NCBI GenBank assembly: GCA_027491935.1
Contig: JAOZGB010000009.1
Coordinates: 1-37,785, forward strand
DNA length: 37,785 bases
From: Thermoproteota archaeon
GTDB lineage: Archaea; Korarchaeota; Korarchaeia; Korarchaeales; JAOZGB01
Direction: 5' to 3'
This document shows, piece after piece, positions 17,341-37,785 of this stretch. Position numbers and translations under genes: made by a program. The notes beneath the pieces are model-generated. The model ran no database searches. It was not told the origin of the DNA and saw only the letters and a list, made by a program, of their open reading frames with translations. How positions within the stretch are numbered: position 1 is the stretch's first letter; the number at the start of each line of letters is the position of its first letter.

Positions 17341-17529
17341 ATGGGTATTAATAGAGCCTTCAGCGAGTCCGGAGAGTCTAACCTGTTGAGGAAGGATAAC
17401 AGTCCTGCTAAGAGCATGGTTTCAGGACTAAAAACCCTCATTGAAAGGGTAAACACTCTTGAGAGAAGGGTGATGGAGATAGAGGATGCCCTTAAAGAGT
17501 TAGCTAACGTTCTTGGTGAGACCCCTTGA
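17341..17529 (+). CDS. Small coiled-coil protein, 62 aa, translationally coupled to the downstream ATPase
   Basis: C-terminal heptad-like helix LKTLIERVNTLERRVMEIEDALKELANVL; stop TGA (17527-17529) overlaps the TTG start (17526-17528) of the next ORF. Confidence 0.6.
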   Translation: MGINRAFSESGESNLLRKDNSPAKSMVSGLKTLIERVNTLERRVMEIEDALKELANVLGETP

Positions 17530-18971
17530 AAGTGGTAACTTTCGGTAAAATCGGGGGAGGATGCGTCGACGGAGATTCCACGATACTTACCAAAGAACAC
17601 GGAAATATAGTTTTTCAAAAACTCTTTGAAAAAATAGTAGGTATCTTTAGACATGAAGTTATAGTTGCAGTGCTTCCTCCGGGTAAGCTTAGGGTGAAAA
17701 GCGTTAATACGGAAAATGGTGAACCTTCGTGGAAAGAGGTTAGGTGTATATGGAGAATACCTGTTAAGGGAGAAGTGTGTAAGGTAGAACTGTCTAATGG
17801 CAACTCGCTATTAACCTCCCGCAGGCATCCCTTTCTGGTAATCAAAGATTCTAAACTTCTATATAAAAAAGCTTATAGATTGAGCAAGAAAGACAGGCTA
17901 TTAAACCCGCTTGAAGGAAAAGCTTCAGAAGTGACAAAAATATTCCGAACGACTGTAGATACATATTTTTACGACCTTACTGTTGACGGATACAACAACT
18001 ATGTTTCATCTGGAATAGTAATTCATAATACAGGATGCACCAGTGTAAGCTTTAACACTGCTGTTTGGCTTTCAAAGCTCTATAACAAAAGAATAGCCTT
18101 TATAGAGGCTGACTTTGGAAGAAATAGTTCCGAATTCCTCTGGGATCCGCTTTTTTTAAAGGCTAGAGAGGAGAGCCCAGGCGATTATCCAACTCTCAGA
18201 GAGTATTTGAATGGATCAGCAGAGCCATGGGAAATAGCGCATGTGAGTAGTAGGTATCCAGAATATAAGAACATAGCCTTTATCCCTGCATCCCAAATAT
18301 TTTCGTCTAAGAAAGACTTATACAAAAACTACCCGAGCTACGAGGAAAAGATGCGGAATCTGATCAAATTTCTCAAATCGAGGTGCGCAGTGATAATAAT
18401 AGATGGGCCAGGAGGAGGGGGGTTTACAGGTATGGCTGACTACTATCTTTTGCTTCCGGTATCAGATGCATTCATACCAGTTCTGGAACCCAATAAACCA
18501 ACAATAAACGCGACTCAGCCTTTAATAGATTTATCAACACTTCTCAAAATAGAATATCCAGCATACATTGTGAATAAAGTCAGGAGAAAGGATCTAAAGG
18601 ACATTAGAGAGATAACAAGGCCTATCAGAAAGTCGGAGGCTCAACCCTGCTTCATAGTTCCATACGACGAAAACATGGAGAAATCTTACAGGATGGGCAT
18701 ACCGATCGCCATACAATACCCCGATTCCAAGGCGTGTAGAGAGATTAGAAGAGTAGCTGAATTCTTGATGGAGGCTAAAACCGGAAGCGAAGCTAAGCGT
18801 AGAGTATCCCTCACACCCCTGATAAACGCGATACTATATGGAAATGCACAGATAAAAACTCTAATATATCAGCTCAAGGAAAAACTGGTCAGTAAAGGAA
18901 GAGTGGACGATGAAATATCTGAAGAGCTGAAGGAGATAGAAAAACTATTAAAGGCTATAGAAAGCCCCTAA
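17526..18971 (+). CDS. ParA/MinD-like P-loop ATPase interrupted by a mini-intein
   Basis: Exteins MKVVTFGKIGGG + TGCTSVSFNTAVWLSKLYNKRIAFIEADFG...AVIIIDGPGGGG...LLLPVSDAFIPVLEPNKPTI...AYIVNKVRR, with SIMIBI/ParA organisation. Confidence 0.8.
   Translation: MKVVTFGKIGGGCVDGDSTILTKEHGNIVFQKLFEKIVGIFRHEVIVAVLPPGKLRVKSVNTENGEPSWKEVRCIWRIPVKGEVCKVELSNGNSLLTSRRHPFLVIKDSKLLYKKAYRLSKKDRLLNPLEGKASEVTKIFRTTVDTYFYDLTVDGYNNYVSSGIVIHNTGCTSVSFNTAVWLSKLYNKRIAFIEADFGRNSSEFLWDPLFLKAREESPGDYPTLREYLNGSAEPWEIAHVSSRYPEYKNIAFIPASQIFSSKKDLYKNYPSYEEKMRNLIKFLKSRCAVIIIDGPGGGGFTGMADYYLLLPVSDAFIPVLEPNKPTINATQPLIDLSTLLKIEYPAYIVNKVRRKDLKDIREITRPIRKSEAQPCFIVPYDENMEKSYRMGIPIAIQYPDSKACREIRRVAEFLMEAKTGSEAKRRVSLTPLINAILYGNAQIKTLIYQLKEKLVSKGRVDDEISEELKEIEKLLKAIESP
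17562..18029 (+). other. Mini-intein (156 aa) inside the ParA-like ATPase
   Basis: Starts CVDGDSTIL (block A, Cys1), SRRHPFLV (block B), TYFYDLTVDGYNNYVSSGIVIHN (blocks F/G) followed by Thr+1; no LAGLIDADG or HNH region. Confidence 0.93.
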
Positions 18972-35122: not shown

Positions 35123-35341
35123 CTAGCATGAGCTGTGGGTAATAGCATTCGTTGGGCATGCGTTAACACAGGCGCAGCATTGAATACACTGGTCGATGTT
35201 CGGAGCTGTAGACTTCCCCTCAACCATCTCGAACACGCCTACGGGGCAGACCTGAACACACTGTTCACAGCCTTCACATTTATCATGATCTATCTGTATC
35301 TCTATTCCAAGACTCTCGGATTTCCATGTCTTCACAGACAT
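35123..35341 (-). CDS. 2[4Fe-4S] ferredoxin
   Basis: DHDKCEGCEQCVQVCPVGVFEM...NIDQCIQCCACVNACPTNAIT. Confidence 0.93.
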   Translation of the reverse strand: MSVKTWKSESLGIEIQIDHDKCEGCEQCVQVCPVGVFEMVEGKSTAPNIDQCIQCCACVNACPTNAITHSSC

Positions 35342-35406
35342 CTTTACACCTCCTCTTCTTAGACGATACGGAAATAATAAAAATATTTAACCGCACTATC
35401 AGTGAT

Positions 35407-37785
35407 GTGGGTGCCAAGTGGTTAAGCATAATCGGACTGTCGTCCGCATTTCTACTTATCACGGCGAGTTTTAGTGTCAAAACAAGTTTTACCTCTAATG
35501 GGAAGGTTGCAGTCATTCTGGCGGTAAATCAGTATGATCCAAACGCCCTTCTATATTCAAGTATATATGCTCCGCTCTCTGTTCATGAAGGCTATACTCC
35601 TATCCTCCTAACCGGAGAAGACCGTCTTGACCGATCCATTAGAAACTTTCTGGAATACTATGACCCTGAACTTATAATTGCAGTCAACTGCCCATCAAAC
35701 ATCATCAATACACTTTCAAAAATCACGTCTGTCCAAGATGAAAAGTATAGTACTCCTGGGGAGGCCTCCGTATCATTAGCGCTGGAAGGCTGGAGCAAAC
35801 CTGAAACAGTGGTGATAACAATGCCGGAGGATGCCGTTGAAGCCTCGACGATAGCTTCAACATTAAACGCGCCTCTCATACTATACTCAGACGAGGCGAT
35901 ATCCCAAATTTCACAGTGGAATGCAACAGTCTACGCCTACAATTTTAAGCCCTCAGGAATCCCTTCCAAATACATCCCGGAAGATAGGTATCTAGATTTC
36001 TTTATAGGGGTTGACGGGATCGACTACATTGTAGTCGCCGATTTTGAAGACGCAAACTCCGCATACGGACGCCTATCCATAGTAAGCCCTCTTATAGCGG
36101 CAATCCACAATGCACCAATAGTATCTATAAACTCGGCGGAGAATTTAATCCTAAGCTACGATGTGGAGTACGTCGCAGTCTGCGGCGGTCTGGACACCTT
36201 CCCACTTGTCGAAAACGGGTATCACCTAGCGTGGCACGACTACCCATTCTATGAAAACGCACTACAGGAGCCACTCGAGATACTTGACTCTGACAAGTAC
36301 GTCGACGTCGCTGTGGGCAGAATCATAGGCGAAAACCCGTACGCCGCCTCAGCGCTTATAGGCAGGACCTGGACCTACCATGAAAAAGGCGTCATAAAAG
36401 ACTCTCTCGGGGTATACAGCATATACTCAGGCTTAGACGAGCTTGCCGACGGATATATCAACGCGCTTTCAGCAGCCGATATCTGGGCAGATGCCATGGG
36501 AGGCGAATCCCACCATAGTATCGGCGAATCAGCCTCCTCAATACTGGGTAAAATGCCCGGGAAAGGTTTAATAATGCTCGTCGGACACGGAGACTACGGC
36601 ACAATAACAACAGCATCCGGAGTCATAGATCCGCAGGCTATAAGTAATACCGTACTCACCTCGCCGATAATACTCTCCTCCTCATGCCATTTCATGGCAG
36701 ACCTAGCCACACCGTCAGGCTCTCTATCACTTTCCATGGTTTCATCCGGAGCTGTAGCAGTAATAGGTGCAGCAACTCTCCAGGAAAGCGAGGCAGCCTT
36801 CTTCCACTTTGTAAACCTTGTATCACTAATCGCCTATAACGGTCTAAGCATAGGAGAGGCGTCGAAGATGGTTAAAAACATGCTCTTACTCTCAACGAGA
36901 GGTCTACCCTACACATGGGTCGAAAACGTGGCAGGAGGCTCGAACACAGCGTCAACCTCCCTAGGGCAAATCCTGATCGGAGATCCAGCATTCACCCCCT
37001 GCCCCAAGCCCAAGTCTAAGATATACACATCCTTTAAATGGGGGAGAGCCGGATACGCAACCGTTGAAGACCTAACCATAGAAGGAGGAATCACCCTAGA
37101 CGTTTTAGGAGAATACACGAGGGATATACCTGAAAATGAGATAGACGAGTTCAACTTCAACACAATATTACATCTCAGCCTGGTGAGAGGGCTGGGCGTG
37201 TCACCAAGGCTCAACGAGCACGAGGGAATAGCTGATGTACCACCCCACCTCTACATCGAGCTCGAACTACCAAGGGGAGACCTCCACATTAAACATTGTA
37301 AAGATGCAGAACTACTCTACGACAAGTCCAAAAACAATGGGAAAACAATCCTACACATATCCCTAACAGTCAGAGGGCCGAACCCATCGTTCTCCGTAGA
37401 GTACAAGGTGAAACCCGTGAAAATATCAGACTCAATCCGGGAAGCTCAGTACTACCAGGTATATACATCCGCGTACGGGCCAGACATGGGATACGCAACT
37501 ATGCTCCTTGAATCTCTAGGCGTTAAATCCACATTAACAGCTGTAAACCCATACTACACTCTGATAGTAGGCGGCCCGCTGGCGAACCAAATGGCAGACG
37601 AATATAACAAGTGGATAGGGCTGTCCTTCACAATATCAGAAGGTAGGGTCACCCTAAACCTAGAAGGGCTAGGGAACTATACAGGAGTAAGCAGCTTCGG
37701 CTTTGTAGACTATGCAGCAATAATAAACCTTGTAGACGACGGCAGAAAAATCCTACTAATAGAAGGGTGCACAAGATATGGAACC
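35407..37785 (+). CDS. Secreted gingipain (C25)-like cysteine peptidase / surface protein, partial (open at window end)
   Basis: GTG start; signal-like KWLSIIGLSSAFLLITASFSV; 793 codons without stop; VAVGRIIGENPYAASALIGRTWTY, IMLVGHGDYGTI (His), ILSSSCHFMADLATPSGSLSLSMVSSGAVAVIGAA (Cys). Absent from the ORF track. Confidence 0.75.
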   Translation, partial: MGAKWLSIIGLSSAFLLITASFSVKTSFTSNGKVAVILAVNQYDPNALLYSSIYAPLSVHEGYTPILLTGEDRLDRSIRNFLEYYDPELIIAVNCPSNIINTLSKITSVQDEKYSTPGEASVSLALEGWSKPETVVITMPEDAVEASTIASTLNAPLILYSDEAISQISQWNATVYAYNFKPSGIPSKYIPEDRYLDFFIGVDGIDYIVVADFEDANSAYGRLSIVSPLIAAIHNAPIVSINSAENLILSYDVEYVAVCGGLDTFPLVENGYHLAWHDYPFYENALQEPLEILDSDKYVDVAVGRIIGENPYAASALIGRTWTYHEKGVIKDSLGVYSIYSGLDELADGYINALSAADIWADAMGGESHHSIGESASSILGKMPGKGLIMLVGHGDYGTITTASGVIDPQAISNTVLTSPIILSSSCHFMADLATPSGSLSLSMVSSGAVAVIGAATLQESEAAFFHFVNLVSLIAYNGLSIGEASKMVKNMLLLSTRGLPYTWVENVAGGSNTASTSLGQILIGDPAFTPCPKPKSKIYTSFKWGRAGYATVEDLTIEGGITLDVLGEYTRDIPENEIDEFNFNTILHLSLVRGLGVSPRLNEHEGIADVPPHLYIELELPRGDLHIKHCKDAELLYDKSKNNGKTILHISLTVRGPNPSFSVEYKVKPVKISDSIREAQYYQVYTSAYGPDMGYATMLLESLGVKSTLTAVNPYYTLIVGGPLANQMADEYNKWIGLSFTISEGRVTLNLEGLGNYTGVSSFGFVDYAAIINLVDDGRKILLIEGCTRYGT

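Follow-up and report, generated by a model that had tools for sequence, protein, structure and literature searches.

A class 1 mini-intein in the P-loop of a MinD/ParA-fold, probably pilus-associated archaeal protein

The stretch of DNA analyzed here (the window) comprises 37,785 nucleotides of contig JAOZGB010000009.1 from a Thermoproteota archaeon (assembly GCA_027491935.1). A host open-reading frame of 481 aa, with a TTG start and open throughout, occupies positions 17526-18971 of the + strand and is laid out as MKVVTFGKIGGG / CVDGDSTIL...SRRHPFLV...YNNYVSSGIVIHN / TGCTSVSFNTAVWL (N-extein / intein / C-extein). The N-extein (17526..17561, +), 12 aa from the TTG start, matches the first strand and the P-loop Gly pair of seven relatives described below. 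The insert (17562..18029, +) is 156 aa or 468 nt long and forms precursor residues 13-168, and the C-extein (18030..18971, +), 313 aa plus the stop codon, carries the predicted MinD/ParA-fold domain with a Walker-B-like IIIDGPGGGG motif. The predicted spliced product is thus 12 + 313 = 325 aa, the size given in a preliminary description of this DNA. Immediately upstream, a small coiled-coil-like ORF of 62 aa (17341..17529, +) ends in a stop codon that overlaps the TTG with which the host gene begins. An 86-aa coiled-coil-like ORF (1200-1460) lies immediately upstream of one relative, L005, and its 29% identity to the 62-aa ORF, in a poor alignment, is only suggestive of kinship. At the far end of the window, an 820-codon open frame (35326-37785, +) continues past the window end and so escapes any ORF list that excludes open-ended frames.

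The insert was matched by three intein profiles, each above its curated cut-off and well outside what chance would give: PF14890 (Pfam Intein_splicing; 65.4 bits, E 6.6e-18, cut-off 35.8), TIGR01445 (43 bits, E 6.6e-11, cut-off 24.5), and, at the VIHN^T end, TIGR01443 (26.7 bits, E 4.7e-6, cut-off 15.6), where the caret here and below marks a splice junction. An AlphaFold (AF2) model of the 156-aa intein, built with four related inteins and separately from a model of the precursor, showed the HINT fold with a mean pLDDT of 87.7. Foldseek with this model returned the PabCDC21-1 intein as the top PDB match (6rpp, E 6.7e-11, TMq 0.85), and all of the best 50 PDB matches were inteins or related HINT domains, while the nearest solved structures by sequence were the PI-PfuI, CDC21, and Pol-II inteins. 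The catalytic positions of class 1 inteins and their roles have been reviewed (PMC4031507), and the set present here consists of the first nucleophile, Cys1 (17562..17564, +), at position 1 of TIGR01445; the block B sequence SRRH at intein residues 86-89 (17817..17828, +), which aligns with the corresponding block in PI-PfuI and PabCDC21-1; block F Asp138 (F:4; 17973..17975, +), where YDLTV aligns with other inteins; the Asn cyclization site, His155-Asn156 (18024..18029, +), covered by TIGR01443; and the second nucleophile, Thr+1 (18030..18032, +), which corresponds to the variable x of GGxGKT in the alignment with the relatives. Two positions deviate from the usual residues, as block B has Ser for Thr (SxxH replacing TxxH, with the His kept) and block F has Asn at the position of its less conserved His. 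The splicing rate could therefore be low, although the LTSxxHPF form of block B is common to the window intein and PI-PfuI. No homing endonuclease was matched in the 156-aa insert with Pfam or NCBIfam, in agreement with the minimal splicing domain of the preliminary description.

By these profiles and its modeled fold, the insert is a class 1 mini-intein, and we infer from the conserved residues and the fold that it splices by the class 1 path. A weak PT-HINT match raises the alternative of another kind of HINT domain, whether bacterial intein-like or hedgehog-type, or of a structural insert of the ordinary sort. Such a reading is extremely improbable, given that the PT-HINT match lies below its own cut-off while three intein profiles lie above theirs, that both splice junctions are present (Cys1 and His-Asn-Thr+1), that a conserved loop is split, and that all seven relatives are free of the insert; both readings were rejected.

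These relatives came from a search with the C-extein of 29 genomes of the phylum, which found one clear relative in each of seven others (E 2e-60 to 8e-28). The insert is absent in all seven, and the junction (GG^xGKT) is gapless in a multiple alignment in which the insert opens precisely between the Gly pair and x, with no second gap nearby. The boundaries were also tested without intein profiles by scoring 238 trial excisions against a profile of the seven intein-less relatives. The best of these removed 156 residues after residue 12 (267.9 bits) or residue 13 (268.4 bits), compared to 248.6 bits for the unspliced sequence, the two excisions being indistinguishable because position x varies among the relatives (V, T, C). 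The preliminary description had placed a 156-aa mini-intein at 17562-18029, which the three profiles and the excision test bear out to the base. It had also looked to Hint/Pfam profiles and to an alignment with insert-free extein homologues, both of which support it as reported above, and had considered homologues carrying the segment as an ordinary domain, of which none appeared among the seven.

The same intein was found at the same site in none of the other genomes among the phylum's 29 and in no viral contig. A wider genome-contig collection likewise held no copy and yielded only an intein-less relative, that of G025 (QMWA01000095.1). A scan for inteins of another phylum, run without a positive control, gave none at E 1e-8. 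The GC3 of the intein is 0.33, compared to 0.42 for the C-extein and 0.36-0.49 for the neighboring genes, which is only a weak hint of a recent foreign origin.

Joining the exteins yields the loop GGGTGCTS, in full FGKIGGGTGCTSVSFN, where the relatives have GGxGKTT, with L006-L008 reading FGLQGGGTGKTT(I/V)SFN at the loop. The Walker-A Lys is kept in all seven relatives (L003-L009), and its position is occupied in the window protein by Cys+3 (18036..18038, +). The deviant Walker A pattern KGGxGK[ST] is not matched by the joined loop, from which both lysines are absent; its signature lysine is also missing in six of the seven relatives. A sequencing error behind the Lys to Cys replacement is unlikely, since the change from AAA or AAG to TGC takes three base changes. 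Given this replacement, splicing may leave hydrolysis switched off. Removal of the insert, which the preliminary description took to restore the P-loop, therefore does give a continuous chain, but the loop is not canonical, and the accompanying proposal that splicing switches on a working ATPase loop is not supported.

The host matched the cell-division MinD profile TIGR01969 at 37.1 bits (E 1.9e-9), below the curated cut-off of 201.75, and the profile of the host family matched archaeal MinD structures (1hyq, E 3e-13). In the precursor model the C-extein was well predicted and was matched by Foldseek to 1hyq (E 1.5e-12), while pLDDT was about 30 over the insert and the intein was left unfolded. 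By profile and model, the host has the MinD/ParA (SIMIBI) fold, and these matches and the alignment of relatives agree with the earlier placement of the intein in the P-loop of such a protein. The host is not a chromosome-partition ParA, as in several genomes the relatives adjoin type IV pilus-like genes. In G026 and G027, the relative belongs to or neighbors an operon that encodes a T2SSE/TadA-type ATPase (PF00437), platform-like membrane proteins, and pilin-like proteins; the G014 relative adjoins a TadA-type ATPase (PF00437) and pilin-like proteins; and the G017 and G019 relatives adjoin pilin-like proteins. Pilus-like genes are thus found next to relatives in five other genomes, with a TadA-type ATPase in three of these. 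The platform and pilin calls were made from size, position, and hydrophobic N-termini, and the platform- and pilin-like proteins tested gave no Pfam match.

The assembly of the window's own genome (455,944 bases, 67% complete) contains a type IV pilus-like operon on another contig, C13 (L050 3239-9014), encoding a TadA-type ATPase, a 448-aa membrane protein, and pilin-like proteins. The TadA proteins of C13 and G026 share 34% identity, and two more pilus proteins are common to both operons. No ATPase of the host's family adjoins the C13 operon, and no pilus genes adjoin the window gene or its closest relative (G025, L043). The window gene may accordingly be the missing partner of the C13 operon. 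The relatives beside pilus-like genes in five genomes and the similar operon in the window's genome make a TadZ-like pilus protein the probable identity of the host, and the mature protein would then probably be a localization factor for an archaeal type IV pilus. Overall, we put at roughly 0.85 the probability that the locus encodes a class 1 cis-splicing mini-intein lying between GG and x of GGxGKT in a pilus-associated, TadZ-like protein of the MinD/ParA fold.

A weak or absent ATPase activity, as the loss of the Walker-A lysine would predict, is compatible with such a localization role, by analogy with bacterial TadZ. A protein without this lysine, seen in one genome of the family, may also be decaying rather than specialized. 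In that case the ATPase lysine of the host, and perhaps the host's function, would be gone and the intein would persist in an unneeded gene, a history that fits the replacement of a residue invariant in the relatives, the presence of the host gene in only 8 of the 29 phylum genomes, and its location away from the pilus operon. We consider this unlikely, although it is the most credible of the alternatives, because all 481 codons are open and the remainder of the protein is well kept, with the IIIDGPGGGG motif retained and the C-extein 38-39% identical to L003. In addition, the lysine is dispensable in such proteins, judging by TadZ, which in E. rectale has lost both lysines (PMC10482377). Replacement of each lysine by Ala in a mycobacterial MinD homologue left ATPase activity unaltered (PMC10482377).

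In the preferred reading of a splicing intein within a pilus protein, the conserved residues predict that the 481-aa precursor would fold and that Cys1 would attack the Gly12-Cys1 bond. Thr+1 would then take the N-extein as a branched ester, Asn156 would cyclize with the assistance of His155, and an acyl shift would give the 325-aa protein, its loop now continuous. Lacking an endonuclease, the intein has no means of homing by itself and is presumably passed on together with the gene; it may persist because precise loss is rare and splicing is cheap for the host. Splicing could instead be conditional, with the precursor held unspliced until a signal such as heat, reduction of a Cys1-Cys+3 disulfide, or binding of a partner or membrane releases the pilus factor. 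Control by temperature, redox, or partner binding, as put forward in the preliminary description, is conjectural. Two P-loop mini-inteins are known to splice conditionally, RadA of Pyrococcus horikoshii (PMC5790916) and DnaBi1 of Mycobacterium smegmatis, in which the catalytic Cys forms a disulfide (PMC6195587). In the window protein, a Cys follows the junction at a distance of three residues, and the intein has Cys62 and Cys73 besides Cys1. No related intein at the same site was available to show these cysteines kept, however, and the precursor model, with the insert unfolded, yields no Cys1-Cys+3 distance. Were ATPase activity lost in any case, such a switch would have only folding or binding to act on. 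We regard conditional release as improbable, and a redox gate made up of the splice junction and the host's P-loop as more doubtful still. In such a gate, Cys+3 would have arisen along with the intein and would pair with Cys1, the precursor staying unspliced under oxidation and the mature pilus factor being set free on reduction.

Inteins are widespread in the phylum, with at least one intein N-terminal region per genome in all 29 genomes. A second intein of the window's genome, which has a long central region, interrupts an anaerobic ribonucleotide reductase-like protein encoded on contig C13; in its host region (L050 10838-13759) the end appears to be ITGN^S, where the residue preceding the last Asn is Gly and not His. 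P-loop insertions are common among the phylum junctions examined and include MCM-type GDPG(V/T)AK^, FtsY GFNGVGK^, SMC GPNGSGK^, and GMTRSGK^. In an SMC-like protein of G026, a 164-aa mini-intein (L039 1501-1992, -) splits the P-loop (GPNGSGK^C...HN^SNIIEA), and Ser1 inteins in the P-loop GMTRSGK^S occur in L066, L072-L076, L078, and L079, where the host appears to be a single protein found in many genomes of one genus. In the other P-loop inteins examined, the insertion follows the Walker Lys (GK^ or AK^) and the +1 residue is the next one, mostly Ser, whereas the intein of the window is placed two residues nearer the N-terminus and takes the variable x (Thr) as its +1. In G028, a 171-aa mini-intein (L033 1130-1642, -) interrupts an SRP receptor GTPase resembling FtsY at its P-loop (GFNGVGK^C...HN^SLSLAK). 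It is the nearest phylum intein to that of the window (31% identity, E 2.3e-9) and its host is likewise a SIMIBI protein, although it sits at the usual P-loop site after the Walker Lys (GFNGVGK^S) rather than before the x of GGxGK.

No report of an intein in a ParA/MinD-type protein was found in the literature searched, older intein catalogues lying outside its scope. The element belongs to a well-known kind, but its host and insertion site are new and its P-loop position is unusual. A host that possibly does not need the Walker lysine offers a clean way to ask whether regulation favors P-loop inteins or the loop is merely a conserved target, and a 156-aa class 1 intein with Thr+1 may serve as a splicing tool. 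Among known inteins, that of the window resembles PabCDC21-1 (6rpp), Pol-II (7oec, 2lcj), and PhoRadA (4e2t) in its HINT fold (TMq 0.83-0.88) and in having no endonuclease. Its identity to these archaeal class 1 mini-inteins is 18-22% by fold alignment, and it differs from them in its block-B SxxH, its Thr+1, and its MinD/ParA-fold host. The KlbA intein of Methanocaldococcus jannaschii is likewise archaeal and was matched by sequence at 4.8e-4; its host protein is not known to have the MinD fold. This intein is of class 2, its first residue being Ala1, its +1 residue Cys, and its penultimate residue, next to the last Asn, Ser (PMC4031507). Like the window intein, the RadA intein sits in a P-loop (PMC5790916).

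For the host, the closest parallel drawn here is with bacterial TadZ/CpaE, which has the same MinD/ParA fold. Some of the relatives are linked to tadA-type genes, and in the window's genome such a gene lies on another contig. TadZ structures have an extra N-terminal receiver-like domain and the host, with an N-extein of 12 aa, has none, so it is called TadZ-like and is not classed as TadZ. TadZ itself, a Tad pilus protein of the MinD/ParA family, combines an atypical Walker A and ATP binding with a low ATPase activity and resembles archaeal pilus components (PMC6668835). The likeness in an atypical, lysine-free Walker A holds for the window protein only, since its seven relatives keep the Lys, and unlike TadZ/CpaE the host is archaeal and carries an intein.
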